From: Ailanthus altissimus
Taxonomy: Eukaryota; Streptophyta; Magnoliopsida; Sapindales; Simaroubaceae
NCBI GenBank assembly: GCA_946807835.1
Contig: OX327700.1
Coordinates: 27,130,001-27,194,000, forward strand
DNA: 64,000 nucleotides
Direction of reading: 5' to 3'
The notes beneath the pieces are model-generated. The model searched no databases and was not told the origin of the DNA. It saw only the letters and a program-made list of their open reading frames with translations. Position 1 is the stretch's first letter. Each line of letters opens with the position of its first letter. Position numbers and translations under genes: made by a program. Shown here piece by piece: positions 4,062 through 27,404 of the stretch.

Positions 4062-4085
4062 GGTCATCTCGGGCCCGAGATGACC
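4062..4085. repeat. 24-bp perfect palindrome in a GC-rich island
   Basis: GGTCATCTCGGG is followed directly by its exact reverse complement. It sits in a sharply bounded GC-rich island (about 3983-4100) inside very AT-rich DNA. The same island holds GCGCCACGTGG and GGCGCCAC, also near-palindromic. It lies upstream of the DUF1985-Ulp1 remnant in that element's orientation, so it could be its 5' region or belong to a different element. Confidence 0.8.
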
Positions 4086-4840: not shown

Positions 4841-5207
4841 TAAGAGTGTGCAAACCTGATTTGGTTCAAATTCTGGATCAAACCAAGATTGGGTAGAAAA
4901 ACTGAATTGAATTGTCTCAGTTATATTCTATTCGATTCTGTGATTTGAACAACTAGTTTTGAGTTAATTTTTTTTAAAGCACAATTACTTTATTTTCAAG
5001 GACAAAATCGAACTGATTATAACCGGTTCTTTCCCATGTCTTTTTAAGTTTTTTTTTTATAAAAAAAATATCTCAGTTTATTGATTCAATTCTGTCCATT
5101 TTCTATTTGATACAACCAAGAACTGAAATAAAGGGTGTGGAAATTATAGTTCGATTCAGTTCGTTTTTGCTCAGTTAGTTTGATTTTCTAATATTTTCTC
5201 ACCCTTA
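4841..5207. mobile_element. MITE, probably hAT-type
   Basis: A 367-bp segment starts TAAGAGTGTGCAAAC and ends TTCTCACCCTTA, so the ends are imperfect inverted repeats (TAAGAGTG against TAAGGGTG). The interior is rich in GGTTC/GAACC-type words seen in other plant hAT MITEs. The flanking 8-mers GTTACAAG and ATTGTGAG match at only 4 of 8 positions, so the target duplication is decayed or the ends are off by a little. Confidence 0.5.
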
Positions 5208-7440
5208 ATTGTGAGAATAGAATTAACTATTTTTTTTTTAAAATATTGAATTATCTAAAATACTGTTATCTCATTTAAATTTTTTTACTTTAATTCTCTC
5301 ATAATATAAACTTTTAAAAAATTGGCTATTAAAATAATTATACAAATTTACTAAAAATTAGAAATGACAAACCAAACTATTCATATATCTTTTTTCTTAA
5401 AAATTTATTTCTTAGACAATTTATTTTTTTTATTTATAAAAAAAACAAACATAAGTAGAAATGAAAGTCGTTTTAATATTTTAGCTCTAGCTTGAATTAT
5501 AGTACTAATAAAGAGTTTTAAAGAGATGAGAAAATATTGTTTACGTTTTCATTGATTAAAATTTAATTTATAAAGTTTATAATAAAAGATAAATCTAAAT
5601 TAATAGGTTTGAGAAATTAAAATACAATTAGAATACAAATTTATTTAAAATAAAAAATAAAATAAATTTAAACTAACTAAATAAACCATTTTCGTTTTCA
5701 AAACTAGTAAGTAGGCAAATGGCGAGACGGGGGTTTTTAGCAATTGTGTGGTGGACGTTTAGAAGAAATCGGAAGGACTCAATTGAAGAGAACAGGCCGG
5801 GCCCAACCATCTTCCTATCATCCCACGGCTGTCCGAATCCGCTTCTATTCATTTATTTTTTTAGGGTTTAATCTGTAAACGCATAACCCCCAGAAAAAAA
5901 AAGAAAACAAAAAATCTCAATGTTAAATTACTATTATGATAAATAACATTATTTAATTTGCTTATAAATAAAATGTTGACATCAAATGTGCAGTTAGCTG
6001 TTTTTAAGGTATAAAGAACTATGAAGAATGAATATGGGGAGCAAGACCAAACGGAAATTTAGGACAACTCACACTTTAAGATGTAATAATAATATCATGT
6101 GTACCAAATAAATAAACAATGTTATTGAAAATTCCTTTTGTTGTTTTTTACTGCACGCTGCGGAATCTCTTCTACTTCTTCAGGGAAATTTACCACTTAT
6201 CGGCCAAAACACACAATAAATTAAAGTTAATAGACATGCAATAATATGAAGGGAATACTAATACTGTCACTTTATGGAGTTAATTAAGCACCTTCAAAGC
6301 TTATTCTTCTTTATTTGAATTCAATCTTTCTTTTTCTCAAGTGATGTGAGTATTTTTATATATATACATATGTATTTTTTTAATAAAAAAAACAGTCACT
6401 TCTTAAAATTTACACAAATTACTCTTCTATAGCGGTTTTGGTTTTATTATATATACTGTTGCTATCTTTGCTTAATTTAAAAGATGAAAATTAAACAATA
6501 AAATAAAGTTAATAGATATGCAATAATAAATTATTGCACCGCATTAAAAGAAAGTTAAAGAATGGTCTGGCATTTATCTTATTCAGAGCATATGCGATTT
6601 ATTTTTTGCAAGAATTATTCTAACAATATTATATATAAAAAAATATTATTTATATTACTCAAATTATTAGAGATAGATATATCAAATAAGATAAAATTAC
6701 ATATATTTTTTATAAGTCGTTCACTAAATTTTTTTTAATGTTAATTTTTAAAAAAATTAATTCATACAATTGACATACATTAACGTGATAAATTATTAAA
6801 TTAATAGATATTACTTAAAAAAAGTGTATATGATTTTAAAAAAAATTATATATAATTTTAAATGTATACTATACTATTTTTTATTTGTTTAAGTTTTTCC
6901 ATTGGGTTTTATTAACAAATTTTTTATCGAGACAATGTTGAAGATGTTTAATATTATTATACATTATAAAATTATTTATTTTGCTTAAATTTTTTATCTT
7001 ATTAAAATTTTCTTTAACAATGTAAATACGACTAAAAGAGCGGTGAAATTCAGAGATAAGTGCTGTAACCGTGGATTTCTCCAAGTCCAAAATTCCATTC
7101 CTTTGACTTTTCAATAATTTTATAAATATGGTTTGTATGTCCTTTCATTTGCACGAGCGTAATATATAAACATATTTCAAAGTGCTTTTAATTACAATTG
7201 TACTTTGTGTTTTAGTTCAATATTTGCGATTAAGGTTTAGAGATAAAAAAAAAAACAAAGATTCAAATTGAAAGCCATTTGAAGTTGTAAGTTTTAGATA
7301 CTAAAACTTACATAAATATTACAAATTTTCAAAGAAAATATTTAAAAATATCCAATTTTTTAAAACAAAAATTTAATTTAACCACAAAATAAATTTGTGA
7401 ATTTTATCCGTCATACACATAATTTTTGTATCATTTTATC
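5208..7440. other. AT-rich intergenic DNA with a small promoter-like island
   Basis: No gene was recognised. At 5799-5806 GGGCCCAA (site II/TCP-type) and at 5862-5870 TAGGGTTTA (telo-box) lie 60 bp apart in a locally GC-richer patch (5700-5880). Such a pair is common in plant housekeeping promoters, but no coding exon was found beside it. A 77-codon open frame at 7114-6881 on the minus strand resembles nothing I know. Confidence 0.4.
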
Positions 7441-7820
7441 TTTGAATTTTTGCATCTCTCCCAGGTGAGGGTGAGGTCGCTTACACACAGGAGCGACTAT
7501 AGAGGAAGCTTGCCAACAGAGGAGATCTAACCTTTCACGAGTTTAGTGGTGGTGGCCGAACTCTAAAGGAGAGTAGGGGATCGGTGGAGGTGGAGTTGGT
7601 GGTGGGCCAGTGGTGACCAAGATGAAAAAAATAAAGAAAGATAAAATAAAAACAAACAAAAACTTAAAATAAAGACTCAAAAGAAGTCAGAACGTCCACT
7701 GAAGAGAAGGCTTTCAACCCTTTCCCTCTCTTCGGTGGAGATGGAAGGACAAGGGTGACAATTGATTTTTTTTTTTTTTCTTGGAGAGGGGGTGGTAAGG
7801 GTAGTGACGACAAAAGTTTT
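7441..7820. other. Unassigned GA/GGTGG-rich segment
   Basis: Base composition differs from the surroundings: GGTGG-rich words, a purine-rich tract at 7620-7690 and a T-run. It could be a fragment of an unrecognised repeat or an old gene. No clear reading frame was seen. Confidence 0.3.
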
Positions 7821-8666
7821 TGTTGAGGGAGAAAATACCCTTCTTTTTCTTGAAATTAGGTTGAAGCGAAGAACCTTGAGTTTAATCTAGAATTTTAACC
7901 TTTTACGCAGCGGAATAATCTATTTATTAAGTAAAATAGTAAGAATTTAAAGTAGAAAATAAAATAGCACAACACAATCTTTCGTGGTTTGGCTAATTAC
8001 TTACGTTCACGGTGGATCAAATGATCCTAGCCTCTCTTATTAACTCCCTAAAGATTTTACAAGAAAAACTCAATAAAGAACTCGCAAAATGACCTAATGT
8101 TTTAGTGTACCCTTACTTTACCACAAGTAATGAACACCCAAATGATGATTTCACCCTAGCACACACAAGCACTTAGTGTCAACCAAATTCTTTTCCTCTC
8201 TTATAGTCTCTTTTAATACTTGATTCTCAACTAAAAGGTTTACAAGTGCTTATATGTGAGTTATTTCGTGCCTACTAATCTTATTCATTTTTTAGAGTAA
8301 GAGTTCACTTATTTTGAAAGTTCAAAATTTTCAAAACTCAAAATTCGGATGAAAACAGACTTTCTGTTACGTCTAGCACTGCAGTGCTCATCCCTGGGTG
8401 CCATGGCGCTGGGAATTGTTGCGCCCATCACCACGGCGCTGGACTTCTGTGTTGGGCGTCGCAGTGCTCAGCTTTGGTTCTCCCTCTATGAGTTTTCTTC
8501 ACTTTATCCGAGTCCCGTTTTACTTCCCTCCTTCGTGTCTCACATGTCATAAATTTCTCCATACGTGTCTCACACGTTTTAAATTTTTTGTGACTCTTTT
8601 CATTGGTATTTATCTAAATTCTTATCTAACCAAAATTGTTGAATTTTTAATTTTTTAATAATTTCA
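7821..8666 (-). mobile_element. Solo LTR of the element-B copia family
   Basis: Starts TGTTGAGGGAG and matches, in reverse, the LTRs of element B (50335-51092): the blocks near ATTAGGTTGAAGCGAAGAACC, GCAGCGGAATAAT, GTGTACCC, CACTTAGTGT, GTTATTTCGTGCCTACTAA, GAGTCACAAAAAATT and TTCAACAATTTT occur in the same order. No internal region adjoins it. It carries a copy of the CG-rich module (8375-8475). The right end is approximate and no clean target duplication was found. Confidence 0.68.
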
Positions 8667-8680
8667 TTTGGAGAGAGCTT

Positions 8681-8686
<6 letters not shown>

Positions 8687-8712
<26 letters not shown>
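8687..8712. repeat. (AT)n microsatellite
   Basis: About 13 AT dinucleotides directly after the solo LTR. Confidence 0.9.
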
Positions 8713-8713
<1 letters not shown>

Positions 8714-9243
8714 AACGGCTTAAAACACTTAATGATTAATAAATTTGTCTTAACGTGATTTATTTTATCTTCTAATGATTTTCGTATAGAGAATTAACGG
8801 TCCAAATATTAACAAAATATTAACTTATGCACCTAAGTGTTTTATTCAATCAATCATCATAAAATTATAGGCCAAAAATAAACATTTGTTGATGATAAAA
8901 GAAAATTCCTAATTCTATCCTCATTAGTCATTACTAGTTTATCTTTAGAAAAGGAAGCACACACGGGAATTTCGAACTCGACGAACAAATATCATCAACC
9001 TCAAACTTTATTGCTCAAATGATATGCTAACTAATATTTTTCCGCACCCTCGTCTTTGGTGTTCATGGATAGAAATGTGAGCAACTACTTTTGCCTAAGA
9101 ATTCCAGCCTTTTGATTGACTTTACTGTCATAAGTTGTTCAATAAAGTTGCCACTAGGCTTGCGGCTCGCTATCTTACTAATTTGAATATCAATGTTGTT
9201 TGGTTCCATCGATCACCCTTATTTTTATATTTATACATATTGT

Positions 9244-9871
9244 TAAGAGTGAGTAAATAAAATTAAAAATTAAATTAAATTGAATTAAATTAATCGATTT
9301 AATTCGGTTATTTTATTAAAAAATTGATTAGTTATTATTTTTATAAAAAAAATTGAACTGGAACTAAACTGAATCAGTCAATTTTTTTTAATAATAACCA
9401 AATCGAAAAAATTTAAAAATAATTATAAAAAAATTAAATTTCTATTCATGAATAAATTTATGTTGAGTCAATTTTATTTTGATGGATATTTTTATTTTTA
9501 TAAAATAGGATAAATTTATTTTTATAGATAATGTAAGAGATTAGTATATTATTAAAAAATTAAAAAGTTTAAATTTATTTTGAATTAAGAAAATTATAAT
9601 TATGTTAATATGAAATAAGTCCAAAAATTAAGTCAAAAAATAAATTAATAATTTTTTGAATAAATAAATTAAAAAGTTCACAATTTAAAATAATAAAACA
9701 AACTTACATCTTGACGTCAAAATCAAATTAAAAAAATTAATTCGATCTGATTTAAGTTTTTTACTTAATTCAATTTTTTTATTTTTAAAAAAAATATAAA
9801 TATAATCAATTCGATACAATTCAGTTTGGTGTTCGACAAAAATCTAACCGCATGAAGCATGCCCACCTTTT
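9244..9871. mobile_element. Probable hAT-type MITE or MITE-like repeat
   Basis: Begins TAAGAGTGAGTAAA and ends near GCATGCCCACCTTTT, the reverse of an AAGGTGGGCATGC-like terminus common in plant hAT MITEs. The interior has repeated AATTCGGTT/AATTGAACTG words. Ends are approximate. From 9872 to the next pseudogene no coding sequence was recognised. Confidence 0.4.
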
Positions 9872-10393
9872 CCCATGTTGATCATTGATTGACTTTTCTC
9901 ATCATCTGAAGTCTACCATTTTCTCAGCAAACTCCAAATATATATTATCCAATCCAGTTACAGTAAAAAAGAATTTCACAAAAATGTCGCAGACATTATC
10001 AGAAAAAAAAAAGCTCAAGAACATTAACTAGACCATTTCTCTGCAACCAATACGTTTGTATCGGACATTTCCAAAAAAAAAGTTTGTACCAGGAAAATAA
10101 AAATCTCTTAACCAACAAGTTTGTATCGGGAAAATAAAAATCTCTTAACCAATGAAGTTGTGACATATCATAATCTCAGATGAACTAATGTTCTTTTGAT
10201 CAAAACTCACAAAGAACATAATGATCCACCAAACCCCACATGGTCAATATCTTGTCATATCTGTACCGGCATTGACAACATGGAAGAGTTAGAAGCCACG
10301 CATTAAGCTTAAGACTTAGTTGTAGAGCCCCTCTAGTTAAAGGGCTAAGCCTCTATCTGTTACTCTCCATCTCTGATATTAATTCTCCCCGTC

Positions 10394-12860
10394 ATGGGTA
10401 GCTACTTTGTACTACTACTTCTATGTCTTAATGCATTATCTTTATCTATTTTGGCTAATTATGGTGGGTTTATTTTTTGTTTCTCGTCATCATGCATGCT
10501 TCAATATTTGGTTTCTAGCAAAGATAATATTGCTGTCTGCTTCTTTTCTTAATTAACATAGTGTTTACTGGCATAGTTTCCCTTTTGTTTCCAATAAATT
10601 AACTTTTTGAAATTCTTTTTTGTACGATGTACAGTGAGCATTTACCGTGGGGCTCTGATTCTTACACTGAAAATTCGGTAAGTTGGGAAGGAGAGAACTT
10701 GATTCAAAATGGAGTGCCCGTGGCGATCGAGACTATCAGTCCACTGCTACCTCAATCAATGAGCACTGTAAGTGTATTCACTACTCGACTGAAGAATTGC
10801 TACTCCATTAATGCTGAAAAGGGCAAACTGTATCTTGTTGGCGCAAGCTTTTACTATGGAAATTATGACAAGAAATCGACTCCTCCAGTTTTTGATCTGC
10901 AATTTGATGGGAACCATTGGTCTACCATTAATACTTCAATTCACTTCCGTGAAGCAATATTTGTTGCTAAGAAGAACACTATAAGTGCGTGCATCGCTCA
11001 GATATTACCCAACATGTTTTCCTTTACAAAATCTCTTGAATTGAGGAGCTTGCCCTTCAGCGTGTACAAACATGTGGATAGAAATCATGCTTTGATCGTG
11101 ATAAATAGACAAGCATATGGTACAAAAGGATTTGTAACTGCAACTTAGTTGGAATTAGTGATTTAATAATTATATATGAGCATAAATTAAAATAGATACT
11201 CAAAAAAGAGTTATTATAAAGTTAAGTTGACGATAAACGTATGAAAGAAGAACAAAATAGAGAGTTGAAAGCGAAAAAAATACGAGCATAGACTCAAGTG
11301 TTGAGCATCACAACATTGGCTTTTTAGCGCCACAGCGTTAAAGACAAAAGCTCTAGCGCCGCGGTATTGGGTTTCGCTACAGCTATGCAACTTGGGGAAT
11401 CTTTTGATTTTGACTTGGATTTAATTTTTTTAAGGGTATTTAAAATTTTTACACGCATGGATTATTTTTTCAACTAAGTTTAAAATTTTTAAAGACTTTA
11501 TAATCACTTTATAAACCTTTATAATTCATCAAGTATCAAAGTAGCATAAAAGAAAATAAAAAATTTAAGTCACATTTGAATGTTTTTAGCACAAAACATA
11601 GTATGATATAAATTATTGATAACTCTTGTGGATTCTTTAAGTACAAAAGAATTAGAATAAAAGAAGTTAAGATTTTTAAATTCATCGTAGACATAAATAA
11701 ATTTACTAAACCATGTAAAGTAGTATGTTATTTTCTTTATTTTCTTGATTGTTTATCTCCTGTTAAATGATCTTTCTTTTCTTGATTATTTGCCAATGTG
11801 AGATTTTGGTAGTCTGCTTGGAATATTTTGTTGTTCACACTAGCTTTACTCTCAACAAACTTTATTATGTTTCCTTATTTGTTTTCGGATGAAATAATCT
11901 ATTGTAGTGATAAATTTTGTGACCATTAAATTTATTAGGTATCTGGCTGATGAGTTTGACAATATCTGAGTTCCTGCGATTGACATTCTAAAATGCAGAT
12001 GGACTAACTATGGCCACAAGGGATGCAATCAATATTGATGTTAAACTCGAAGATGATCCTCTAAAAGTTGTATTGCAACATACGCTTATATTCTCAAACA
12101 AATATCCGTCTATAAAAAGTAATCCTCATAAATGGAAGTGTTAGAGAAAATTTTTTAAAATCTTTTAAGATATTTTATAAATTAAATAATTTATATATAA
12201 TAATTAGTAATAAATTTTTATTATTATATAAGATTATAATATTTTTAAATTAGCCATTAAAATTAAGTTAAATATGAAAGAGTTATAATATTTATATATT
12301 ATTATTATTTGATAAGTTATATATATTAAATTAATTAAAGAATTATGAAACTTAATATAAATAATAATAAAATTAGGTATATAAATTCGTTATTACTTAT
12401 ATAAGAAGATAACTATTTAACTTTAAGATAATACTCTCTAATATATTTCTACTAAGTTCAAGGTCAAATTTTTTCATTCTTTATTTTTATTTTATGTTTG
12501 TTAATAATTCTGTTTTATAAATATTAAATAATATATTTTTTAATATATGATAGAATAATATCTAAAATAAATTTACCTAATGGAAAGAATGTCCAATTTA
12601 TATGAACCCGAGTTACTCATCTTGATTCAACCCAAGAAAGATCCTTTCTCTTTTATATAACCGGTGTGCCTTTCTCAAAACCCACTATCCCACCTTATGG
12701 AAATGTGACAGAAATATCTGGCAAACTTCATTGCTTCTTCAAACACTGTGTCGCTCTAGAAGCTACTTCTACTTCAACTTTGTCACCTCTCATCGATGCC
12801 CTGGAAGTTTTCCCCATTGGCAGTAAAATAATAGATGGAACCTCTAGCGATGATGATTAG
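10394..12860 (+). pseudogene. Truncated malectin-like receptor gene
   Basis: An ATG at 10394 opens a hydrophobic signal-peptide-like exon (MGSYFVLLLLCLNALSLSIL). The long open segment 10627-11148 carries the first half of a malectin-like domain: CYSINAEKGKLYLVGASFYY, GNYDKKSTPPVFDLQFDG and SLELRSLPFSVYK are typical of this fold. After an intron holding an LTR remnant, about 11940-12100 reads YLADEFDNI then a stop then VPA, the block that is normally RYPDDxYDRIW. The last piece, 12666-12860, has STLSPLIDALEVF, the usual end of the domain. No leucine-rich repeats, transmembrane segment or kinase follow. These receptors normally sit in the plasma membrane and bind carbohydrate or peptide ligands. 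In-frame stops and missing parts mark it as a pseudogene, although a short secreted product from 10627-11148 cannot be excluded. Confidence 0.75.
11160..11860 (+). mobile_element. Degenerate LTR remnant inside the receptor intron
   Basis: The order of blocks resembles the segment at 27600-28260: a degraded CG-rich module at 11325-11395 (GCGCCACAGCG, GCGCCGCGG), then words such as TTAAGTCACATTTGAATG, ATAGTATGATATAAATTATT and CTTGATTGTTTATCTCC. It is probably an old solo LTR. Its ends are approximate. Confidence 0.5.
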
Positions 12861-14587
12861 TATATTAATTAGAAGTCATTGTTGTTGGTTATTTTCGTTT
12901 TATATATTATTACAATTATATTTTATATTATATATTATCATATATAACAAATATAAAATATATAAAAAATAATAATAAATGAAGTAAAATTAAATCTGAC
13001 TTAAGTATATAAGAGACATGTTAATAAAACTATCTTAAAATTAAATAGTCCTCTTTTTATATGGGTAATGACGAATCTATATAGCTGTAATATACAATTT
13101 TATGCTCACAACTGCTTTCCACTTAATTATTAAAAGATCATATCAAGTATTTTTTGACATAATTACTCAAAACTCAATATAAAAAAGTATATAATTTAAA
13201 ATAATATATAACATAATATATTTCTCTTTTTTTGTTATTCTTCGCTCTTACACACACTACTAAAATCACTTTTTTCTTCTCTACTTTATTTTTATACACA
13301 CACTCTAAAGAATGATTAACACGCTTTATATAATAGTAAATAAGAGTTAAGGTATTAAATTAATATTAATTTAGCACTATTATAATTTTAAATATTTTGT
13401 AACTCTTAGAATTAATTCTAATATTTAATAATAAAAATAAAATATATTGTAACTCTTACAATAATTTAAAAATAAATAACTTCAAATAATAATAATACTA
13501 TAAATAAATATTTATAATTTTTAAATATTTAATATGGATTAATGGTTAATTTAAATATTATAATCTCTATATAATAATGATAATTTAAAATATTAAAACT
13601 ATATTAATATTTCATAACTTATTATTTATTTAAAAGATTTAAAACAAATTCCATCAGTCCCCACAAAAGATTTGAAAATATTTTATATATAAATTTTTTA
13701 ATATATGAAAAAATATAATATATAATTAATAACAAAAATATATGAGAATAACATTCTATTATGTAGGAGGTATAGGTGTCTTTCGAACTTGAATCTATAT
13801 TTAGTGATATTAAATTTATTTGAGGAACTTGAGTGAATTATGTCTTAAACTCAAATCAAACTTCAACTATAACACACATAATAGTGATAAAGACTTAGTT
13901 TTACGAGTTATCGCAGCCCTACGCTCTATTTTGATTCTAACGAGAGCTCCAGAAAATGATCCAATTCCTATAGTCACGACCTTACGAGAACTCTACATAT
14001 GTGAGTTCTCTAATGACATATGTGACCCATACCTTACAAGAATATTCTTATTTTAGACTTATTTAGAGTAAATATCATTCTTAACGTTACACAAATAAGT
14101 ATTTTTACCATAAGAATGAGCGGAATTATATATCCTTTGAGATATGTTCATAATATAAGTGCTAAATAAGTCATGCTGTATAAATTATTCTTATCAATTG
14201 AACCTCCTTTATGAGATCTCCAATCACAAAAGTTAGGTTATTTTTATAAATGACTCTCTTGTGAGTTTAAGCACATCTTCTTTGATAATTTAATAAGAAC
14301 TTTATCAAAAATCTTTTGTTTATGATTTTAAAAATATTTTATTTATGAGATTTTTATATAATTACCATTTTATATTTATGGAATTTTCCTCCAAAAAAAA
14401 AAGACTTGAGATAAGAAATAAATGTATTTTTAGAGAACCCTTGTGATAAAGTATTTTATTATAAAAATGTTATCTTAATTATTACTTGAGGATAAGTTAG
14501 ATCGATTTTTTTTTTATTTTTTAAAAAAGAGATTAATATTTTCTTTTCCTTATCAGTGATTAAGCAAAGCTACAATTTTCTCTCATT
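12861..14587. other. AT-rich intergenic DNA
   Basis: Long runs of ATAATAATA and TAAATATT words. No exon, RNA gene or element termini were recognised. The 78-codon open frame at 13820-14056 looks random. Confidence 0.5.
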
Positions 14588-14595
14588 ATTAAGTC

Positions 14596-14889
14596 TAGGG
14601 GTAGGTAGAACAGGTTTCAGTTCGGTTTTGGCCTAACTCGAATCGAAACCATAACCAATTGGTTTAAGCCCGTGCCAATCGAGCGGAACTGATTCGATTT
14701 GATTTTTTTTTGGTTATTTTTAGTGTATTTTTTTTTATTTGAATTAAACCGAAATTAAATCAAAATTGAACCAATCGAATCTAAAAAAATCAAACCGAAC
14801 CCTAAATTAAAATTTAAATTGAACCGAATTAAAACTTTCAATTCAGGTCGGTTCGGTTTACCGATTAACTAAACCAACTCCCACTCCTA
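14596..14889. mobile_element. hAT-type MITE with 8-bp target duplication
   Basis: 294 bp, starting TAGGGGTAGGTAG and ending CCCACTCCTA, i.e. imperfect terminal inverted repeats. It is flanked by an exact 8-bp direct repeat, ATTAAGTC, at 14588-14595 and 14890-14897. The interior holds inverted GGTTCGGTTT and AAACCGAA words. The 8-bp duplication points to hAT-family mobilisation. Confidence 0.8.
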
Positions 14890-15476
14890 ATTAAGTCTAT
14901 CTTTTTTTTCTTCATAAAAAGAGTCTTCACTTCAATATTAAATAATGCACTTCAAACCTTTTATCACCAACCATTTAAATAAGTGTAAGTCTATTCATTT
15001 TTACTCTCTAAAAAAAGTTTTAACTATAGCAATAGAAAATATGTGAACCATTCTTTAAAAAAAGTTTGATTTTAGTGGATTTTTTTTAATTTAAATTTTC
15101 AGATAAAACTATATGCCACACACAAAGATATGTTAGTCACAATTTAATCCTATAATAGGAAACACAAGACATGATTAGTTGTACCTTGTAGTTAGTGTTG
15201 GCAAAATGACTTGTTGGTTTCCTACTCGATTGGGTCAGATATTCGAGTTAATTTTTAAATATTATTAAAATTAGGTTGGGTGAAAATTTATTTGAAATAT
15301 TCAAGTTAAAATTATAAAATCATAACTCAGCCCAAATATTTGTTATATAGGAAGACAGTGTCTTATGAAGCAAACTTTAAGTAACGCAGAGAGACATAAA
15401 TTAATACACAAAACGAAACCAAAATTCATTTTTAAGTTTTGTTTTAATATGATCCTCACCACTTGCAGAACTATAA

Positions 15477-16395
15477 TATTGAAAATTGATGATTCAACAA
15501 TCTTGTATGGTTAAGAATTATGAAAAATACTAAGAGGAGAGTTATTATGAAGTCAAGTATATATTACGTGTACAAGGGAGGAGCAAAACGGAAAGCAAAA
15601 AAAAAAAGGATACTGTTCATGCACAACACTATTCACGGTGAGCACTGTTTGTGCGTAGCGGGTTTACTGTTCATCAAGTATAGTTCACTGTAGGTATTAT
15701 TCACCAATACTATTCATGCGACAACTTAGGAGTATTTTTTGTTTTGACTCAATTGACTTCTTTAAGTGGGATTAGGACTCCTACAACCAAGTACTCTTAT
15801 TCCAACTAGGTTTAGAGTTTATATGGTGTTTTATTCACTATATAAACCCTTCTAAACACAAGAGAAAGTAAAACATATAAAGTTTCAAGATGTAAACCAT
15901 AAGAGAGAATAGATAAGTTAGGTAAGTACTAAGTGCGTTGTGCACTAGGGTGTAATCTTTTGATAGTGTTTTGTTTTGATTCTTGAGTGAATAAAAGAAA
16001 TAACATATATACTTTTGACTTAAATGTTAAGGCTATTATTGTATTTCTTATAAAAATCTCTTATGAAGAGATACTAATAGGTCTTGAAAAAATCATGGTG
16101 ATCAATGGTAGATGCTTAGAGATCTTTATGAGAGATATTATGATAGTCTATGGGAGATACTTTGTATTTTATAGGATCATTAATGATGTAAGAAGATATT
16201 TAGTGATCTATATCAATAATAAGAAGTTGAATCATAAATCCTTCGTAAACGTAGGTAATTTTAGGTCGAACCACATATATCTCTTGTCTTATTGATTAAT
16301 TTAATTTTTTTTATCTTTATTAGTGTGATGATCATATGTGTTCTTACTTATAGAATGAATTATAATTTTTACTATACATAGAATAAATAAAGTAT
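15477..16395 (+). mobile_element. LTR remnant (solo LTR), GATTCAACAATCTTG family
   Basis: Starts with a decayed end followed by GATTCAACAATCTTGT. It matches in order the reverse of 40705-41609: GTACTTGACTTCATAATTATTC, TATATAAACCC, GTGCACTAGGGTGTAA, TCTTGAGTGAA, ATCTCTTA and TATGGGAGATAC. Where the element-B LTRs carry the CG-rich module, this copy has a cluster of CACTGTTCA/ACTATTCA repeats (15610-15725). Ends are approximate. A 102-codon open frame inside is chance. Confidence 0.6.
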
Positions 16396-17961
16396 TAAAA
16401 TTATAATTTAATTGATATCATAAGAGTATTAAATTAAAGAATATAATTTAATATCCGTCACACATAACATAAGATTCGAATAATTTTTTTTTTCTAAAAT
16501 CATTCAACAAACAAAGCAGAAAAATCCCAAATCAATAATACTTAAAAACTCGTAAACAAAAGATTCAATTCGACAAATCTGATTAAATCCAATAAAAAAA
16601 TATCACAAGAGTTCACAAAAAGTTAATACTTTTAATGCCCTATAAATGGAGATCACAAAGAAATAAAACAAAATAAACCCACAGGTAAAAAAAATAAAGA
16701 ACTGCCCAGAAATGAAAATGAAGAAATGTGAAGAAAGAGGGAAAAATGTGAAAGCTTGACGATGAGTAAAAGAGATTGAGAGAGAGAAGGATAATAAGGC
16801 AAAGGAAAGAGAGAGAGAAATATAGAGATAATAAAGAAAGAAAGAAAGTGGATGAAGAGAGAGAAGGGAGAAAGTTCTTGCTTTCCTGTTTTCTAATTTC
16901 TCTTTGAAAACTCACCAAGACGAAAGAATATAGAATAAATATAACTTCAAAAGAGCCCACATAAATTTCGATGAAAATTTATTTATTTGCCATTTTTTTT
17001 TTCCTTTGAGATGAGTGAGTGTTGAGACAAAGATGATTTTGATTTCTTTTTTAAAGGGGTGGTAATGATATTATAGGATAGCACCTAAAAGGGTATGGGT
17101 AATGGGCGCATGGGTTACACTCTACCCGATTGAGTGTAACCCAATTCATACCTGATTAAAATTTTTAGAAAATATGGCGAGTTAAAAATAATCATCCATT
17201 CGAGTATAGGTTTAAGTCAAGTAAAATCCGACTTAACCCGACTCAATTATTAGCACTACTTGTTTATTTAATCTAATTCGGTGTACTAAACGAATTTGGG
17301 TTAGGTGAATTTAAGCCTTTAACCATAAGTAATAACAATTAGTTTTTCTAGGAAGTCAAAATCTAAATTTGAGTTGAGTTTCTAAGTTTTGGCAAAAACT
17401 CGTATTCAATTTAAACTCAAATTTTTCAAAAAATCCAAATTGAGATCTGAAAAAAAAAATTCAAAATTTTGAATCTAAATTAAATTTGAGTATTTTTAAA
17501 TTTGAATCCAGACTAAATCGTCATCTCAAAGTTTAATATGTCTTAAGGGTAGCATTAATAATAATTACTCTTTTAATCCGTAAATCAACTCTTAATAAAT
17601 CACAATACATTTGTGCAATAGTTATATTTTCTTCCTACCAATCAAAATAGGACACAAATAAATATAAATGACAACGAAAGCTCCTTGTGAAAATGAAAAT
17701 TTTCTGAGTACTAAAAGATTCATCATTCTATATCTCTACATGATTTTTTTTTTTCATTTTTAATAGAACTTTTTAATTTTCTCTCGGTCACTTGACTAAG
17801 AACAAAATTAACTTAAACATCATTATGCATTTTTTTTTTAGGTACACACAAATCGCCTCTTCAAATTACTTGAAATAGAAGTCAAAGTAAAAAAATGGAG
17901 ATGATGTAAATTTCAATAACTTATAACTTTGGATCTCACAATTTGATATCATATTTTATTA
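16396..17961. other. AT-rich spacer with purine-rich tract and a 12-bp hairpin
   Basis: 16670-16900 is strongly purine-rich (GAAAGAAAG, GAGAGAGAG words) and produces a spurious 106-codon frame on the minus strand. TGGGTTACACTC at 17111-17122 and its exact complement at 17132-17143 form a 12-bp stem with a 9-nt loop. No gene was recognised. Confidence 0.5.
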
Positions 17962-17966
17962 AATTC

Positions 17967-20155
17967 TGTTGGGTTATTTGGGGTACCAATTCACTTAGGG
18001 TTCTTGCATGTGGGTTTGTGTTCATAATACAAACAATATACATATCTCATACATACATGTGCACAGCGGAAGATTATGTACAATGAACACAGAAAATAAC
18101 ATTTGATTAAACTGAAATTCGAGATTGAGAAAATCACCAATGAAGCCTTTGGATTAATTTTCTTTGAAGTCCACCATGAAATGAATCTTTGATCAATTCT
18201 AGCAATCAACAAGGGTGGGTTTGATTGTCTAGAATGGCAGCATCTTAATCCAGCATATGTGTTTAACTCTTAAACATTTTTCAAAGTTAAACCATTTAAC
18301 TTAATTAAATTTGTTTTTCCTTTTATTCAACTCTTGAATAAATAAAACAAATCTTGTTTTTAGTTATTACATTTAGTAACCATTAATTCAATTTGTTTTG
18401 TTGTTCTAACACTTAAAACACAAAACAAACAATTTCAATTTCTCAAATTGAATTGGCTCCCAAAATGCAAAACCTAAAAAACTAAATCAATTTTGAATTT
18501 CAATTTCATTTCACTTTATATACAAATGAATTAATTCCAAACTAATTTGAATTTCATTTGCATTTCATTTGGCTTAACCTAACCTTAGTTAACATTTAAC
18601 CTTAGTTAGATTATTTTAACTTAACCTTTAAGTTAATAAATATTTAATTAATTTAACCATAGTTAACTAACTTAACCATGGTTAGGTTAACCTTTACTTA
18701 ACCTTTAAGTAAGGTTAACTTAACTTAACCACTTGGTTAACTTTTAACCTTAGTTATGTTAAATTAATTTATTTAACAATTAAATAAATAAATATTTATT
18801 TTAATTATTTAACAATTAAATAATCATAAAGTGAAATTACTATTATATCCTTACTCGGTTACCTAGTTAACCTAAAGTGGGTCCCACCAATTTAACCACA
18901 TGCTTTAGTTAACGTAACCTTAGTAATTGCTGAATTATACTGTATTGAACAATTCAATACGGTATACTGCCCAAGTGCTCAAAGAGTACATTTCATATTG
19001 GGACTCTCTAGGTCCACACCCGATTTGTCAAATGGAACTATTCCATTAATCCGTAATCGATGCCCCACGCACACGTTACGAATATTACAAATCAGCGTGT
19101 CAGACCATACAAGTTGAGGTCATAACGTATACGTATAATCCTTCCATCATTTATACCCTGGATGTGCGGGGATATAGATCAGCACCATCAAATCCCCATT
19201 TGCTCATCCAATAATCTTATCTCCAGATTCGTATCTCGATAAACAATATACGCAAACATTTTTGCTATATTGTTTAACCCTGTGGGAAACTCTTTTCCCG
19301 GGTTTATGCTTGTGGCCACAAGACTTTATGAAATACAATCTCAGAGCATCGGATATACAACTTACCTACGTAAGCTGACGGATCCCGTATCTACGCACAC
19401 CGGACTCCATGAGCATCGGACCATACCCAGCGACACATAGCGGTCAGACCATGAAAGGTCTCTGACATATGTGGAACCAAAGCATGATGGATCACTCACA
19501 AGACCACCGTGGCGCTCAGGTCAAAGGACCACGAATACTACTCAACTCGAGAGGACCTTCCTTTGACGGTGTCATAGGATATCTATTGGGGTCCTCATAA
19601 GTCTGTTCAGTATCCAGTCCTGACTGGATACCCGCATGCCTATACAAGCTCTAAGCTCATGGTCAGCTAAGAACAACCATCTGAACCAGTCAGATATAAA
19701 CATACACTAATCTATATAAAGTTAATCACCGATAGACCCGCATTAGTGATTATAGATCAGGAACATTATCTTTGAGACATACTTACATAATGATATTTCT
19801 TAACACCTATTGCAACTCTTTGCAACTATATCATTACAAGTATACTCTCAGGTCTTTGTCCCATTATAGACAAGGTTCTAACTCTTTAGACCTCGCTGAC
19901 TCTTATAACCTGCTAACTCTTAACAGTGCTAACTTTTAGCATTTATAACTCTCAGCTTTGCTAACTATTAGTTCTGATCTAAACTCCTTTAGACCAGATC
20001 TGAACTCTTTCAGATCAAACAATGTCTGTAATGTTACAAGCATTATACCATATTAATATGATATTAACAATCTTTATTCGAAATGTTTATTGTATAAATA
20101 TTAACAATTAATATTCATACAATATTGGAATGGCACGTGAGCACCAGCTCCAACA
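17967..20155 (-). repeat. 3' LTR of the 9.3-kb element
   Basis: Same sequence as 25111-27299 at a constant offset of 7,144 bp, as far as read. It holds a GGTTAA-rich block (18575-18775) and many perfect hairpins. Examples are GTATTGAA/TTCAATAC at 18942-18960, AATGGAA/TTCCATT at 19031-19047, a 10-bp plus 5-bp stem at 19241-19275, GGGAAA/TTTCCC at 19284-19299, the palindrome CTTGTGGCCACAAG at 19309-19322, and 10-bp arms with a 2-nt loop at 19610-19631. Confidence 0.93.
18575..18775. repeat. TTAACC/GGTTAA-rich block in the LTR
   Basis: Irregular TTAACC words, many per 200 bp, with nested inverted repeats such as AACCATGGTT. The second LTR has the same block at 25719-25919. On the sense strand the word is GGTTAA, the core of plant GT-element (GT-1 box) sites. 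Confidence 0.8.
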
Positions 20156-20172
20156 AACTCCCACTTGCTTCA
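20156..20172 (-). other. Polypurine tract of the 9.3-kb element
   Basis: The minus strand reads GAAGCAAGTGGGAGTT directly against the 3' LTR, a normal place for plus-strand priming. Confidence 0.65.
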
Positions 20173-21474
20173 GTGCCATACGTACTGGTATCTCATACCA
20201 ATACACTCCACGTGTTTCTCAAACACTATAGGAGTTTAGGCTTAGGGGGGTTCGCTACATCCAAGGATTATTCCCTAGATTTTATTACAACTCTTGTTGC
20301 CAAGAACTTTCTAATTATGTGATTTTCAGAGTTCACATGATTAGAATACTGGTGTGCCTTATGGCTTCTCGGCTTAAGCAATTACCGTTATTTTGCAATA
20401 TAGTGGGATAGGATCCACTGAGCTTGGAACTATTCAAAGCTCTGCAATTAATTTTGAATATCCATAGTACTTTCTTTGCTGACTTCTCAAGCCGCAACAT
20501 ATTCTACCTCCAAGGCAGAATTACCTGTGGACATTTACTAACACACATTTAACTAGCTCCGGTACTGATAAAGAGAAACACATAACTAGATGTAGACTTT
20601 CTACCATTCAGATCAGATGTAAGTCTGAATATGTGTATCCCTTCTTTTGTAAGAAACATTTCTCCATATTATATAAACTTATCCTATATACTTCTCAAGT
20701 ATATATAGATATGTTTCACAACCATTAAATGGTTATGATCTAGATTTAATAAGTACTAGCTTGTAACACTTACAACCATCTTAATCCAGATTTCGTACAT
20801 TAAACGGTATGCATTAATCTATTTCTAGCTAATGCATCTGAGACGTTAGACACTCTAACTCTCTCATCTTCTTCCCGAGGACACTTCCTCTAAGAAAGAT
20901 GAATGCCACTTCTAAAAGGGACTTTAACTGTCTCACAGTCAATGAAGTTGTACCTTTTCGTGGACTTATTCTATATACGAAGTTTGAGAGAGTCTTATTT
21001 GCTTCCTAGCTATATCTCCATAAAGCTTTATACCTAGTACCTAGTATATAGGAAGTCTCTCTCAAATCTTTTATGAAGAAGTTCTTTACACAGATAACAC
21101 TTATCTGAATTACTTGCTATACTCCAATCATCGTTTCCAATATTGAGTATATATTTTTCACTTTAGAGAACTAAAAAAGATAATTATACTCCCACCGCCC
21201 TTTCTAAACACACACGCTTCCTCTTTATTCCTGATAAAACCAGACTTTCTGATTTCATCATATAAACAAAGATTCCACCTTTGGAAAAATCTACTTAAGT
21301 CCATAAATGGACTTCCTCAGTTTGCACATTATACTAGAAGTTAGGCTTGGATGCAAAAAACATCAAGTTGTTCTCTGCATATCTCTTGTTGGAGATATAC
21401 TTCCCAGAACACCTTATTTACATTTATAAGCCAGTCCTCATTATCATAATATGCAGCAATAGCCAACATAATCC

Positions 21475-21984
21475 AAATTGACTTTAGTATGGTTACTGAT
21501 GAAAAAGGTTTCCTCATTATTGATCCTAGATCTCTGAGTGTAACCTTTCAACATTAGTCAGGCCATGAAGGACCATTCCTTCAAATAGGGCCCACATTGC
21601 TTCCTCTGCATAAACTGATTTACTGCTGATAGAAACAGTTTCTACAGGAAGCACAACTAAGTCCTAGACTTAATTGTCATACTTAGAGTCAAATTCGAAT
21701 TTTATGGTATCTTGTCATCAACAAAATCTAAATTGACTTTAGCATGGTTACTGATGAAAAAGGTTTCCTCATTATAGATCCTAGATCTGTGAGTGTAACC
21801 TTTCAACATTAGTCAGGCCATGAAGGACCATTCCTTCAGATAGGGCCCACACTGCTTCCGCTGCGTAAACTGATTTACTGCTGATAGAAACAATTTCTAC
21901 AGGAAGCTCAACTAAGTCTTAGACTTAATTGTCATGCGTTGAGTCAATTTCAAATTTTATGATATCTTTTTATTTTTCCGAATC
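21475..21984. repeat. Tandem duplication of about 255 bp
   Basis: The unit starting AAATTGACTTTAGTATGG at 21475 recurs from 21730 (AAATTGACTTTAGCATGG). It includes GATGAAAAAGGTTTCC, GTCAGGCCATGAAGGACC and GGGCCCACA in the same order, with a few substitutions. The difference between copies shows that the duplication predates the present insertion or arose by error-prone copying. Confidence 0.85.
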
Positions 21985-23762
21985 GATGTCAAACATCGTC
22001 TCTCCATAAGTTAAAGGATCCATTTCTTCAACTAAGAAAATATCAAGGGTACATTCAAGTATCAAACATACCTAAATGATGGCCTTGATATCCTTTTGGA
22101 CTTATGAACTTAGTGTGTTAAAGGTATTTCACTCATTGAAATTAAAACTCCATCGTTGGTTCATCTAATTTTTGGATTGACTTCATCAAGTTCAATCTTT
22201 CTATAATCTCCACAATCCATGAGAAACTCTTTCTCTAGGAATGTGACATTATGAGAAACGAACATATTTCGTTCATCTGTATTATAGAAGTGGTATCCCA
22301 TTATACACTTGAGATACTAAATGAACCGATACTTGTACCGTTGGATACAAGTTTATTCTGTTGCATAACTCTTATGAAAACAGAATAACACTAATTCTTA
22401 ACATACTTAAGACTCATTTCCTATTTAGTCTATATCTCATATAAAGTAGTAGGAACGATTATGGAATTATTTAATAAGTGAGTAGCAGATGCTAAAGTAT
22501 AACCTCATAGATATTTTAGAAGATCAGCGATTCTCAATATCAATCAGACTGTATCTAATATAGTCCGATTCCTCATTTCCTAAGCATCTTTATGTTGAGG
22601 AGTATTTGAAGGACTATGCTGAGAGAGAATCATATTCTCTTTAAATAATTTATGAATTTACTGATTATGTATAAACTACTTCGATCTAATCGCAAGTACT
22701 CAATGTACATAAGGGTTTGTTTCTTTACTTTCATTGTCAGAACATTTTGAACACTTCGAAATTATTCTGACCTACGTTTCCTAGAAACACATGTCCATAT
22801 AGTGACAATCACTATAAAGACAATGAAGTATCGAAATCATTTATAACAGTAAGATTTATTGGACTAAATACATCTATATGTACCAGATCTAATAAACCAG
22901 TGGCTTGGCGTCTTACACCTACATAAAGATTAGGTCATATTCTTTTGAATTCATAATTCATAAACTAGTCAATGTACTATAGTCAGATCAAATATCTGAC
23001 CATCCTTAACCAGTTATTATAGTCGTCTCACGGCTACATGATCTAATCTTATATATACCACTATTCATTATTATTTAAGTTGCTGAAATACTATATATTC
23101 TGTTCACCTCTACACTTATAACATTTGCTATTGTATATAAGATATAACGGCCATTCATTAACTGACATTCAGTTAGTAAATCATTATCATTATCACAAGG
23201 AACTATTTCCGTATTTTTATGATAACCCTCTCTGTCAACTACAGGGAGTGATATGATTTACCTAATAATGTTTGGCACGTAATAGTAATTATACAACATT
23301 AATGCTGTTACTAGAAATAAGAAATAACTGTGAAGTCTTAACGGCTACCACGTTCAGGAAATCTCTATTACCTACGTGAAGCTGAACTTCTCATTTTTTA
23401 GTAATCAAGCATTTCTCAAATCATGCAACATCTTGCAGATATGATAATAACAAGCAGTATCTCATACCCTTGCAGAGTTAACATCAAATGCTAATGAAAT
23501 GTTAATGTTTGGTCAAACAGATATCTAATGAGTCAATCTTTCTTAAGTCAAGGTACGATGAATAGTAACATTTACTATTTCAAACCTTATAACAGTGGAA
23601 ACACTTTCCATTATGACTTTTCTCTATATGTGGTTTAGTAATATCAAATATTATTGAATCTAGAACTATTCTTAGATTCATAAGCAAGCCTTACATATTT
23701 TATTCAGTACCCTATAGTTATTGGTATTTGTTCAAGATTAGTAACGGATTGCTCGTACTCAT

Positions 23763-23839
23763 CTTATCTCTATAAGACAATCTTATCTCTATAAGACAAG
23801 TATCTTATCTCTATAAGATAATCATCTTATCTCTATAAG
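23763..23839. repeat. Four tandem CTTAT-CTCT-ATAAG hairpins
   Basis: CTTATCTCTATAAG occurs at 23763, 23782, 23804 and 23826 (spacing 19, 22, 22). Each copy is its own 5-bp stem with a CTCT loop. Confidence 0.95.
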
Positions 23840-24045
23840 ACAAAATAGGAGATGCGTAGCAGAACATTTCTTTATCGTTAATAAATTACGTTTTAGATCA
23901 TGGGTATAACTGTTATACATTTTTTAATCTAAAAAACGCCCTCCCACTGCTTTACTTAATCCCTTTAATCTCTCAAACGGGATAAGATAGTATAATATTT
24001 TAAACTATACAGCGGGAAGTGGATCCCATTGGGGTTTTACTCCAG

Positions 24046-24340
24046 CCTCACGCTAAAGCAATATTGGCCTTTATAAATCCAACAGGTAGACAACTCTTGT
24101 CAATTGTATCTCATACAACTCTTACTACTGATCCTAAATACACATTACCCTCACGCTAAAGCAATATTGGGTAACTGTATTTCAGATTAACTCATCAATG
24201 CTCAAATATATGTTACTGACACTATCCTCACGCTAAAGCAATATTGGATAATATGTTCGCATATATTTGATTCATCTTATGTTTTACCGGCATTAGACCA
24301 AGTCACACCGACCAAATCCCTCACGCTAAAGCAATATTGG
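24046..24340. repeat. Four spaced copies of a 22-nt unit with co-varying flanks
   Basis: A 22-nt unit that begins CCTCACGCTAAAGC and ends AATATTGG is identical at 24046-24067, 24149-24170, 24226-24247 and 24319-24340. The unit ends CC...GG can pair. The bases just outside differ between copies but remain complementary: G/C in copy 1, TTAC/GTAA in copy 2, TAT/ATA in copy 3, TC/GA in copy 4. It lies in the 5' untranslated part of the element, downstream of the primer site. Confidence 0.95.
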
Positions 24341-24667
24341 GAAAGACCATAGTGACCCATCTCACACCGTATTGACAAGACGGACCATTTAAAATATTAT
24401 CACATAATATAATAAATTTCAATCTAATTAAGAGAGATTTTAATTACAGGCTTTCATATTATATGCTCTCATCACATGAGAGGTTATTCTCAATCAATTA
24501 TTCATTTTTGCACAAGCACAACTAAACCCCATCAGTGGGGCCCCCATTGTGGTTACAAAAATAAATAAAATAATAAAAATATTATTTTCTTGGTTTATCA
24601 TGTAAACTAATAACCCTTATTATTACATCTCATAAACCCCCACATGCGGAAAAATAAAAAGATTTTA

Positions 24668-24670
<3 letters not shown>

Positions 24671-24698
<28 letters not shown>
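24671..24698. repeat. T28 homopolymer
   Basis: Uninterrupted T run bordering the CG-rich leader block; length is uncertain in any assembly. Confidence 0.9.
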
Positions 24699-24704
24699 AG
24701 TGTA

Positions 24705-24980
24705 AGAACGCCGCGGCGCTGGTCTTATAGCGCTGCCGCGCTAGGGCTTCACAAGCCTTAGCGCTGCGGCGCTGTCTTACTAGCGCGGGCGCGCTGGAAG
24801 CAGTGCTTCCCGCGCTGGGGCGCCAGAAAACCAGCGCCCTCGCCCTTGTCCAGCGCTGGGGCGCCAAAAAATCAGCGCCCCTGCGGTACTTCAGCGCTGG
24901 GGCGTCATACGCTCAGCGCTCCCGCGTTCATATGAACGCTGCCGCGCTGGACCTTAGCGCTGCAGCGTTCCAGGTGCTGT
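24705..24980. repeat. CG-rich near-palindromic module array in the element leader
   Basis: About nine AGCGC starts occur in 270 bp, in words such as AGCGCTGCGGCGCTG, AGCGCTGGGGCGCC and AGCGCTGCAGCG. It lies between the primer binding site and the remnant coding region. The same words recur in unrelated LTRs in this window. An open frame through it (24803-25003) is a composition artefact. Confidence 0.85.
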
Positions 24981-25096
24981 TTTTCACTGGTTTGCATTTT
25001 TAACACTTAAAATGCACCCCAACAGCCCCGGAACATGTCCTACAATTTAGCCAACACTTAGCTAACACTAAAAAATCACCCATAACAACACAAATT

Positions 25097-25108
25097 GCTC
25101 TGATACCA
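25097..25108 (-). other. Primer binding site, initiator tRNA-Met
   Basis: The minus strand reads TGGTATCAGAGC two bases from the LTR edge. This is the complement of the 3' end of plant initiator tRNA-Met and the usual primer site of plant copia elements. Confidence 0.9.
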
Positions 25109-25110
25109 AT

Positions 25111-27299
25111 TGTTGGGTTATTTGGGGTACCAATTCACTTAGGGTTCTTGCATGTGGGTTTGTGTTCATAATACAAACAATATACATATCTCATACATAC
25201 ATGTGCACAGCGGAAGATTATGTACAATGAACACAGAAAATAACATTTGATTAAACTGAAATTCGAGATTGAGAAAATCACCAATGAAGCCTTTGGATTA
25301 ATTTTCTTTGAAGTCCACCATGAAATGAATCTTTGATCAATTCTAGCAATCAACAAGGGTGGGTTTGATTGTCTAGAATGGCAGCATCTTAATCCAGCAT
25401 ATGTGTTTAACTCTTAAACATTTTTCAAAGTTAAACCATTTAACTTAATTAAATTTGTTTTTCCTTTTATTCAACTCTTGAATAAATAAAACAAATCTTG
25501 TTTTTAGTTATTACATTTAGTAACCATTAATTCAATTTGTTTTGTTGTTCTAACACTTAAAACACAAAACAAACAATTTCAATTTCTCAAATTGAATTGG
25601 CTCCCAAAATGCAAAACCTAAAAAACTAAATCAATTTTGAATTTCAATTTCATTTCACTTTATATACAAATGAATTAATTCCAAACTAATTTGAATTTCA
25701 TTTGCATTTCATTTGGCTTAACCTAACCTTAGTTAACATTTAACCTTAGTTAGATTATTTTAACTTAACCTTTAAGTTAATAAATATTTAATTAATTTAA
25801 CCATAGTTAACTAACTTAACCATGGTTAGGTTAACCTTTACTTAACCTTTAAGTAAGGTTAACTTAACTTAACCACTTGGTTAACTTTTAACCTTAGTTA
25901 TGTTAAATTAATTTATTTAACAATTAAATAAATAAATATTTATTTTAATTATTTAACAATTAAATAATCATAAAGTGAAATTACTATTATATCCTTACTC
26001 GGTTACCTAGTTAACCTAAAGTGGGTCCCACCAATTTAACCACATGCTTTAGTTAACGTAACCTTAGTAATTGCTGAATTATACTGTATTGAACAATTCA
26101 ATACGGTATACTGCCCAAGTGCTCAAAGAGTACATTTCATATTGGGACTCTCTAGGTCCACACCCGATTTGTCAAATGGAACTATTCCATTAATCCGTAA
26201 TCGATGCCCCACGCACACGTTACGAATATTACAAATCAGCGTGTCAGACCATACAAGTTGAGGTCATAACGTATACGTATAATCCTTCCATCATTTATAC
26301 CCTGGATGTGCGGGGATATAGATCAGCACCATCAAATCCCCATTTGCTCATCCAATAATCTTATCTCCAGATTCGTATCTCGATAAACAATATACGCAAA
26401 CATTTTTGCTATATTGTTTAACCCTGTGGGAAACTCTTTTCCCGGGTTTATGCTTGTGGCCACAAGACTTTATGAAATACAATCTCAGAGCATCGGATAT
26501 ACAACTTACCTACGTAAGCTGACGGATCCCGTATCTACGCACACCGGACTCCATGAGCATCGGACCATACCCAGCGACACATAGCGGTCAGACCATGAAA
26601 GGTCTCTGACATATGTGGAACCAAAGCATGATGGATCACTCACAAGACCACCGTGGCGCTCAGGTCAAAGGACCACGAATACTACTCAACTCGAGAGGAC
26701 CTTCCTTTGACGGTGTCATAGGATATCTATTGGGGTCCTCATAAGTCTGTTCAGTATCCAGTCCTGACTGGATACCCGCATGCCTATACAAGCTCTAAGC
26801 TCATGGTCAGCTAAGAACAACCATCTGAACCAGTCAGATATAAACATACACTAATCTATATAAAGTTAATCACCGATAGACCCGCATTAGTGATTATAGA
26901 TCAGGAACATTATCTTTGAGACATACTTACATAATGATATTTCTTAACACCTATTGCAACTCTTTGCAACTATATCATTACAAGTATACTCTCAGGTCTT
27001 TGTCCCATTATAGACAAGGTTCTAACTCTTTAGACCTCGCTGACTCTTATAACCTGCTAACTCTTAACAGTGCTAACTTTTAGCATTTATAACTCTCAGC
27101 TTTGCTAACTATTAGTTCTGATCTAAACTCCTTTAGACCAGATCTGAACTCTTTCAGATCAAACAATGTCTGTAATGTTACAAGCATTATACCATATTAA
27201 TATGATATTAACAATCTTTATTCGAAATGTTTATTGTATAAATATTAACAATTAATATTCATACAATATTGGAATGGCACGTGAGCACCAGCTCCAACA
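25111..27299 (-). repeat. 5' LTR of the 9.3-kb element
   Basis: On the sense (minus) strand this is the promoter-bearing LTR. A TATA-like TTTATATAG is visible at about 26856-26865 (reverse of CTATATAAA). Transcription would run toward lower coordinates through the hairpin-rich part of the LTR or start within it; the exact start cannot be read from sequence. Confidence 0.92.
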
Positions 27300-27404
27300 A
27301 ATTCTATATAAATTATTGCATAATTTAGTTTTGGAATTACTTTCTCCAACACACACATTTATATATGAGAGAAAGAATACAATAAGAATTTATTCTCTCT
27401 CTAA

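Follow-up and report, generated by a model that had tools for sequence, protein, structure and literature searches.

To our knowledge, how non-autonomous long terminal repeat (LTR) elements recruit the machinery of a helper is poorly understood. For large retrotransposon derivatives (LARDs) and terminal-repeat retrotransposons in miniature (TRIMs), trans-complementation is assumed and well-conserved RNA structures are said to be specified (PMC7215508). Packaging signals are described as varying around a common motif (PMC6281560), and those of hepatitis B virus (HBV) as carrying an RGAG loop motif that is read by the core protein (PMC7612645). In the retroviral complexes described in PMC7599994, the nucleocapsid (NC) zinc knuckles of human immunodeficiency virus 1 (HIV-1) bind the exposed guanosines of GGAG and GGUG loops, and in UCUG it is the last G that the single knuckle of Moloney murine leukaemia virus (MoMuLV) NC takes. 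The element considered here lies at 17967 to 27299 of a 64,000-nt stretch of Ailanthus altissimus DNA (contig OX327700.1, positions 27,130,001 to 27,194,000; hereafter the window). It is a non-coding copia-type LTR retrotransposon filled with perfect micro-hairpins, and it looks like a LARD-like element with an apparent dispersed packaging code.

Compared by their descriptions, LARDs (e.g. Sukkula) and TRIMs differ from the window element in several respects. Cassandra is described as having one super-hairpin formed by its two LTRs, whereas the window element has about 60 discrete micro-hairpins, free in stem sequence but bound by a common loop rule, together with a recognisable, decayed copia pol. 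It resembles the packaging signals described for single-stranded RNA viruses (MS2) and HBV in its many varied stem-loops with one short loop motif (PMC6281560, PMC7612645). Unlike in MS2, however, triloops are dense (6.2 against 0.84 per kb; for 4-nt loops, 2.7 against 1.7), the molecule that hosts them is an LTR retrotransposon, and the protein contact is putative. Similarly, retroviral packaging hairpins are contacted at exposed guanosines of the loop (GGAG, GGUG) or at a G that ends the motif (UCUG) (PMC7599994), but they are found in the 5' leader, and the sites of the window element span the whole RNA including the LTRs. No retrotransposon with such a hairpin array was found in a small check of the open-access literature.

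The element, a copia derivative without genes, was inserted recently. Its LTRs end in TG..CA and are accompanied by a 5-bp duplication, a primer-binding site (PBS) and a polypurine tract (PPT), as in copia-type elements, and the bounds proposed in an earlier note made from the letters alone agree with the identical LTRs and the flanking AATTC duplication. The primer site adjoins the LTR at 25111 and the purine tract adjoins 20155, and therefore the sense strand is the minus strand. Its main features are as follows.

17967 to 27299, sense on the minus strand: whole element, non-coding copia-type LTR retrotransposon, with identical LTRs, PBS and PPT in position and no stop-free frame above 90 amino acids (aa) inside
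25111 to 27299, minus strand: 5' LTR (in the sense direction), 2,189 bp
17967 to 20155, minus strand: 3' LTR (in the sense direction), 2,189 bp, identical to the 5' LTR
17962 to 17966: left target-site duplication, AATTC
27300 to 27304: right target-site duplication, AATTC
25097 to 25108, minus strand: PBS TGGTATCAGAGC, which we take to be of the initiator-Met type
20156 to 20166, minus strand: PPT AAGTGGGAGTT
20417 to 23290, minus strand: broken copia pol remnants (tblastn matches weak and interrupted by stops), in the order pre-integrase, integrase, SH3, reverse transcriptase (RT), RNase H
21464 to 21973, minus strand: 255-bp tandem duplication in the RT remnant, halves 92% alike, conserved in other copies

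Integrase precedes RT, the copia order, in these weak and stop-ridden remnants, whose tblastn alignments have E values of 4e-6 to 0.7, some with in-frame gaps. The longest stop-free frame of the interior is 90 aa, and a Pfam scan of six stop-free pieces gave one match, SH3_retrovirus at 23 bits, below the cut-off of 27. The element lacks coding capacity and yet was recently mobile, as the identical LTRs and many close copies indicate, which is LARD-like.

The hairpins that the earlier note had listed are all present, letter for letter and position for position (17 of 17). Examples, including further ones in the interior, are given below in their sense-strand form (arm.loop.arm), with the aligned form in more distant genomic relatives (cousins L067, L068 and L073, introduced below) where it is available.

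18260 to 18276, minus strand: LTR hairpin TGTTTAA.GAG.TTAAACA; second copy at 25404
18322 to 18342, minus strand: LTR hairpin TTTATTCAA.GAG.TTGAATAAA
18942 to 18960, minus strand: LTR hairpin GTATTGAA.TTG.TTCAATAC; in L067 GGATTGAA.TAT.TTCAATCC, with the pairing kept and the G lost
19031 to 19047, minus strand: LTR hairpin AATGGAA.TAG.TTCCATT; in L067 CATGAAA.TAG.TTTCATT
19997 to 20016, minus strand: LTR hairpin GATCTGAA.AGAG.TTCAGATC; in L068 GATCTAAA.AGAG.TTTAGATC
24104 to 24118, minus strand: interior hairpin TTGTAT.GAG.ATACAA; in L067 TTGCAT.GAG.ATGCAA
21984 to 21998, minus strand: interior hairpin CGATGT.TTG.ACATCG; in L067/L073 TGATGT.TTG.ACATCA
23159 to 23175, minus strand: interior hairpin TAACTGA.ATG.TCAGTTA within the pre-integrase remnant; stem unchanged in L067
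21297 to 21314, minus strand: interior hairpin AAGTCCA.TTTA.TGGACTT, with a loop that does not end in G, over KSIYGL of the RT remnant

Hairpins were counted over 7,144 nt (the interior plus one LTR) with perfect arms of at least 6 bp unless stated, and expectations were taken from dinucleotide shuffles (40 shuffles, 10 for the right flank and 60 in a repeat count). Loops of 3 nt number 44 against 3.1 expected (2.8 with 60 shuffles), those of 4 nt 19 against 3.1, and those of 5-8 nt 27 against 8.6; for 3-nt loops the excess is found both in the LTR alone (15 against 0.8) and in the interior (29 against 1.4). Chance and the selection bias of an eye scan, which the earlier note had allowed for, are ruled out by these counts. 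Besides triloops, loops of 4-5 nt take part. As the earlier note had also noticed, loops mostly begin with C on the plus strand, that is, they end in G on the sense strand (G-last); this applies to 38 of the 44 loops of 3 nt, 11 of the 19 of 4 nt and 8 of the 11 of 5 nt, with other loops in a minority. When arms of at least 5 bp are admitted, G-last triloops number 47 against about 2.2 expected and the remainder 11 against about 8. The triloop excess is nearly all G-last, and base composition alone, for which the near-absence of excess among the remainder leaves no room, was rejected as its cause.

A non-overlapping set of 61 G-last hairpins was defined by loops of 3-5 nt ending in G and arms of at least 6 bp (or 5 bp with a 3-nt loop). 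These 61 hairpins in 7,144 nt have 59 distinct stems, so that they are many differing stem-loops with a common loop motif, as is the case for dispersed packaging signals; repeated insertion of one hairpin was rejected on the same count, and the claim that all stems differ stands for nearly all of them. They are irregularly spaced, on average one per 117 nt (coefficient of variation 0.88). The closing pair is A-T in 39, T-A in 19 and C-G in 3, C is nearly absent from the loops, and position 2 of the triloop is never C (0 of 47).

Within the window, G-last triloops per kb are nearly confined to the element. Three-nt loops number 26 against 15.2 expected at 1-17966 and 28 against 17.5 at 27300-64000, and C-first loops make up 5 of 26 (1-18000) and 2 of 27 (from 28001). 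The density comparison that the earlier note had proposed was also made with two other copia-type stretches: at 43500-47500 there are 4 triloop hairpins against 1.2 expected, one of them G-last, and at 58800-63200 there is 1 against 1.2. By the same count the RNA phage MS2 has 3 against 0.9. Searches of Rfam over 17967-27299 (no match above the gathering score), of IMG/VR with the LTR-PBS junction (0 matches) and of phage records with a 701-bp interior piece (no match) were negative.

Relatives were sought in the assembly that contains the window (939 Mb, 37 contigs). There, the LTR gave 6,249 first-look candidates, of which the best 40 were scored; 38 of the 46 matches listed are full-length or nearly so at 95-100% identity, including the two of the window. 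The 510-bp duplication in the RT remnant gave 3,038 candidates; the best 40 were scored, all at 99-100% identity, and 16 of them, that of the window included, score as identical. Additionally, the LTR-PBS junction occurs 871 times with at most 3 mismatches. Relatives in the genome number hundreds to thousands. Four other full copies each have 54-61 triloop hairpins over a 9.5-kb stretch, 51-55 of them G-last.

Cousins were reached via a variant junction. Identity to the window element is about 95-96% for L064, L065, L066, L070 and L076. For L071, L074 and L075 it is 79-91%, counted at non-hairpin sites, for L067 and L073, in which L067 continues, 73-77%, and for L068 72-78%. No frame of L067 stays free of stops for 80 aa, and 19 of its 30 triloop hairpins (arms of at least 6 bp) are G-last. 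Two loci with similar junctions, L069 and L072, show no sequence relationship near the junction and lack the G-last array. L069 is a copia-type element with a gag-like frame and the same PBS as the window element; it has 4 triloop hairpins against 2.1 expected and 7 four-nt ones against 2.2, without the G-last rule. No similarity between L069 and the window element was found, and L069 is therefore at most a putative helper.

Changes in close copies were counted over 71 aligned stretches against a base-matched expectation from non-hairpin sites. Left out were alignments below 300 bp or overlapping, in the loop-G count (40 sites) also those below 85% identity, and LTR hits of at most 1,500 bp; sites had to be covered by at least 8 copies, or 5 in the loop-position count. 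Changes common to at least two copies number 32 in stems against 50.7 expected and 21 in whole loops against 13.9. By the mispair produced, the shared stem changes are 14 G-U (15.9 expected), 9 A-C (13.6) and 9 other (21.2), and private stem changes are less depleted (52 against 64.9). The loop-final G has 2 shared changes at the 40 sites covered by at least 8 copies, where about 4.8 are expected (0.119 per outside G site); at 52 sites of whatever coverage the figures are 2 and 6.1, and the 40-site figure is preferred. Similarly, positions 1, 2 and 3 of NNG triloops (36 sites each, 52 stretches) show 8, 6 and 1 shared and 1, 3 and 6 private events, respectively. Within the interiors of the four full copies, 1.8% of stem sites depart from the window sequence, compared with 4.0% of sites elsewhere. 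Inherited changes spare the pairing and the loop G, and not the other loop bases.

Five cousins of 72-91% identity (11 stretches; L068 and L075 kept, L044, L051 and L057 left out) gave 1,168 pair cells, with expectations computed from the non-hairpin sites of each alignment on the assumption that substitutions are independent; the cells are not independent, since the cousins have a common history and one hairpin enters several times. For the window hairpins, 922 cells are unchanged against 809.9 expected, 37 are compensatory against 19.9, and 91 are other mismatches against 165.8. In the cousins' own hairpins (872 cells), 727 are unchanged (593 expected), 20 compensatory (13) and 63 other (118), and the loop-final G of their triloops differs in 5 of 57 cells, against 19 and 14 at the other positions. 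For instance, clean compensatory cases occur in the stems at 24104 (TTGTAT/TTGCAT), 19997 (GATCTGAA/GATCTAAA) and 21984 (CGATGT/TGATGT). In three multiple alignments, 22 compensatory cells are found in register and 4-8 when the partners are slid by 1-3, and the compensatory count stands out against column shuffles in alignment A3 (0 of 300 reach it). These comparisons point to moderate conservation of the pairing and the loop motif in evolution.

If the hairpins were a mutational imprint without function, left by a reverse transcriptase or polymerase that switched strand and perfected imperfect palindromes, then perfect arms and some compensatory change would be explained; many arms are perfect, compensatory change does occur, and strand switching between short inverted repeats is described as homogenising arms (PMC8604942). 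However, stems are more conserved than their surroundings (922 cells unchanged against 810 expected), the loop-final G is the least altered position among shared changes, and there is no such array in the copia-type stretches at 43500-47500 and 58800-63200 or in L069. The arm sequence does not drift at the rate of its surroundings and changed pairs are mostly not compensatory (37 of 246 changed cells), and therefore template switching, which the earlier note had offered as one origin, is not supported. It had also been thought to account for the ruined pol. Nine hairpins are entirely contained in pol remnants alignable in a single frame, e.g. over KSIYGL and GRKST (weak alignments, E 4e-6 to 0.7); therefore these are not frame-breaking insertions, and pol was ruined there by substitutions and stops. 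Base substitutions in what was once coding sequence seem to have produced the palindromes of the pol remnants. A functionless imprint is very improbable. The relatives favour selection for the hairpins over such an imprint, and selection for structure is supported at moderate strength.

The selected molecule may be RNA rather than DNA, on evidence that is suggestive. The alternative is that hairpins act in single-stranded cDNA or as cruciforms of integrated copies, e.g. in guiding strand transfer or integration. The LTRs too are filled with hairpins, folding scores are equal on both strands and the preference for G-U is weak, all of which would suit DNA; overall, the comparisons of G-U with A-C are weak or mixed. 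The loop rule, in contrast, depends on the strand (38 of the 44 triloops are G-last when read in the sense direction), which speaks against a symmetric cruciform, and the shared stem changes rank as a sense RNA predicts, with G-U before A-C and A-C before the rest. A DNA role is improbable. Of the structural code in genomic RNA that the earlier note had proposed, the selection for structure has held (conserved stems, excess of compensatory change, loop G kept), whereas genomic RNA as the coded molecule is only suggested.

The element is non-coding, and yet its LTRs are identical and its copies very many; therefore it should depend on a helper. The chance seems about even that selection maintains the hairpins as structures of a non-autonomous copia-type element, likely in its genomic RNA, and that the Gag zinc knuckle of a helper reads them. 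Each hairpin would use a short stem of nearly any sequence, closed by A-U or U-A, to present a mostly 3-base loop ending in G, and about 60 hairpins per transcript would serve as dispersed recognition sites. The zinc knuckle of the putative helper's Gag (nucleocapsid) would take up the exposed loop G, and many weak sites could jointly enable an RNA without genes to compete in trans for being packaged and reverse-transcribed. We infer both that RNA is selected and not single-stranded cDNA, and that Gag is the reader; reading by Gag is the most likely mechanism, although unproven.

The same evidence for selection would be expected if the RNA structures had another reader or role, such as a host RNA-binding protein, protection from small RNAs or decay, export, or a block to translation, and the data here do not point to the identity of the reader. 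However, packaging in trans is the first need of a gene-less element, and the loop-final G matches the nucleocapsid zinc-knuckle contacts in published complexes (PMC7599994). Another reader or role is rather unlikely.

Several observations weigh against selected RNA hairpins read by a helper's Gag. The helper Gag was not identified, no search aimed at a helper having been completed in the genome. Folding z-scores are nearly equal by strand (interior -1.49 sense and -1.52 antisense; LTRs -1.51 and -1.83 sense, -1.74 and -1.81 antisense), and near-perfect G-last triloop stems within the element show no preference for G-U (21 G-U and 17 A-C, against 2.1 and 1.35 expected). In the cousin cells of the window hairpins, G-U is just slightly better tolerated (66 against 87.8 expected) than A-C (52 against 84.5), and in the cousins' own hairpins (872 cells) the figures are 40 against 87.4 and 22 against 59.4. 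The deficit of shared stem changes in close copies is found at A/T sites (10 against 30.1) and not at G/C sites (22 against 20.6). Additionally, few G-last hairpins are left in L068 and L075, and the loop-final G of the window's NNG triloops has changed in 25 of the 106 cousin cells, close to the 31 and 31 at positions 1 and 2. Co-variation of stems among relatives, by which the earlier note had wished the code to be judged, holds in the cell count (37 against 20) but does not exceed column shuffles in two of three alignments, the compensatory count being reached in A1 by 36 of 300 and in A2 by 135 of 300.

A stronger form of the Gag reading is tentative: the whole RNA, LTRs included, may be a multivalent Gag ligand whose roughly 60 NNG-loop hairpins out-compete the helper's own RNA for packaging, with an upkeep by compensatory change that is common to families about three-quarters identical. 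If true, a dispersed packaging code would exist among LTR retrotransposons, and the success of non-autonomous elements would have a molecular reason. A countable rule (free stem, G-last loop) in hundreds to thousands of copies without coding constraint makes a packaging code directly testable, and, were Gag not the reader, about 60 hairpins under selection in the RNA of a transposon would still be unusual.

Some further features of the element and its relatives were observed. The 510-bp duplication is strikingly conserved, though eight copies compared across 3.5 kb diverge from the window by 1.6-2.8%, and each of its 255-bp halves folds to about -78 to -80 kcal/mol. The presumed leader has a GC-rich stretch at 24697-24980, inside an otherwise AT-rich element, and a 41-bp unit is tandemly repeated within it at 24808-24904. 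At G000:C11:21177397-21191688, three variant-family PBS junctions lie in one orientation, 7,134 and 7,133 bp apart, a spacing that suggests a tandem LTR-interior-LTR-interior array, of which L064 is one fetched unit. In L071 (G000:C1:11902780-11907800), the LTR-side stretch matches inverted relative to its interior.

Elsewhere in the window, 1-17966 has an excess of 4-nt loops (52 against 14.7 expected), mostly in AT-rich simple sequence and without the G-last rule. At 60287-60591, between pieces of the right-end copia-type element, a 149-bp unit is repeated twice (92%).

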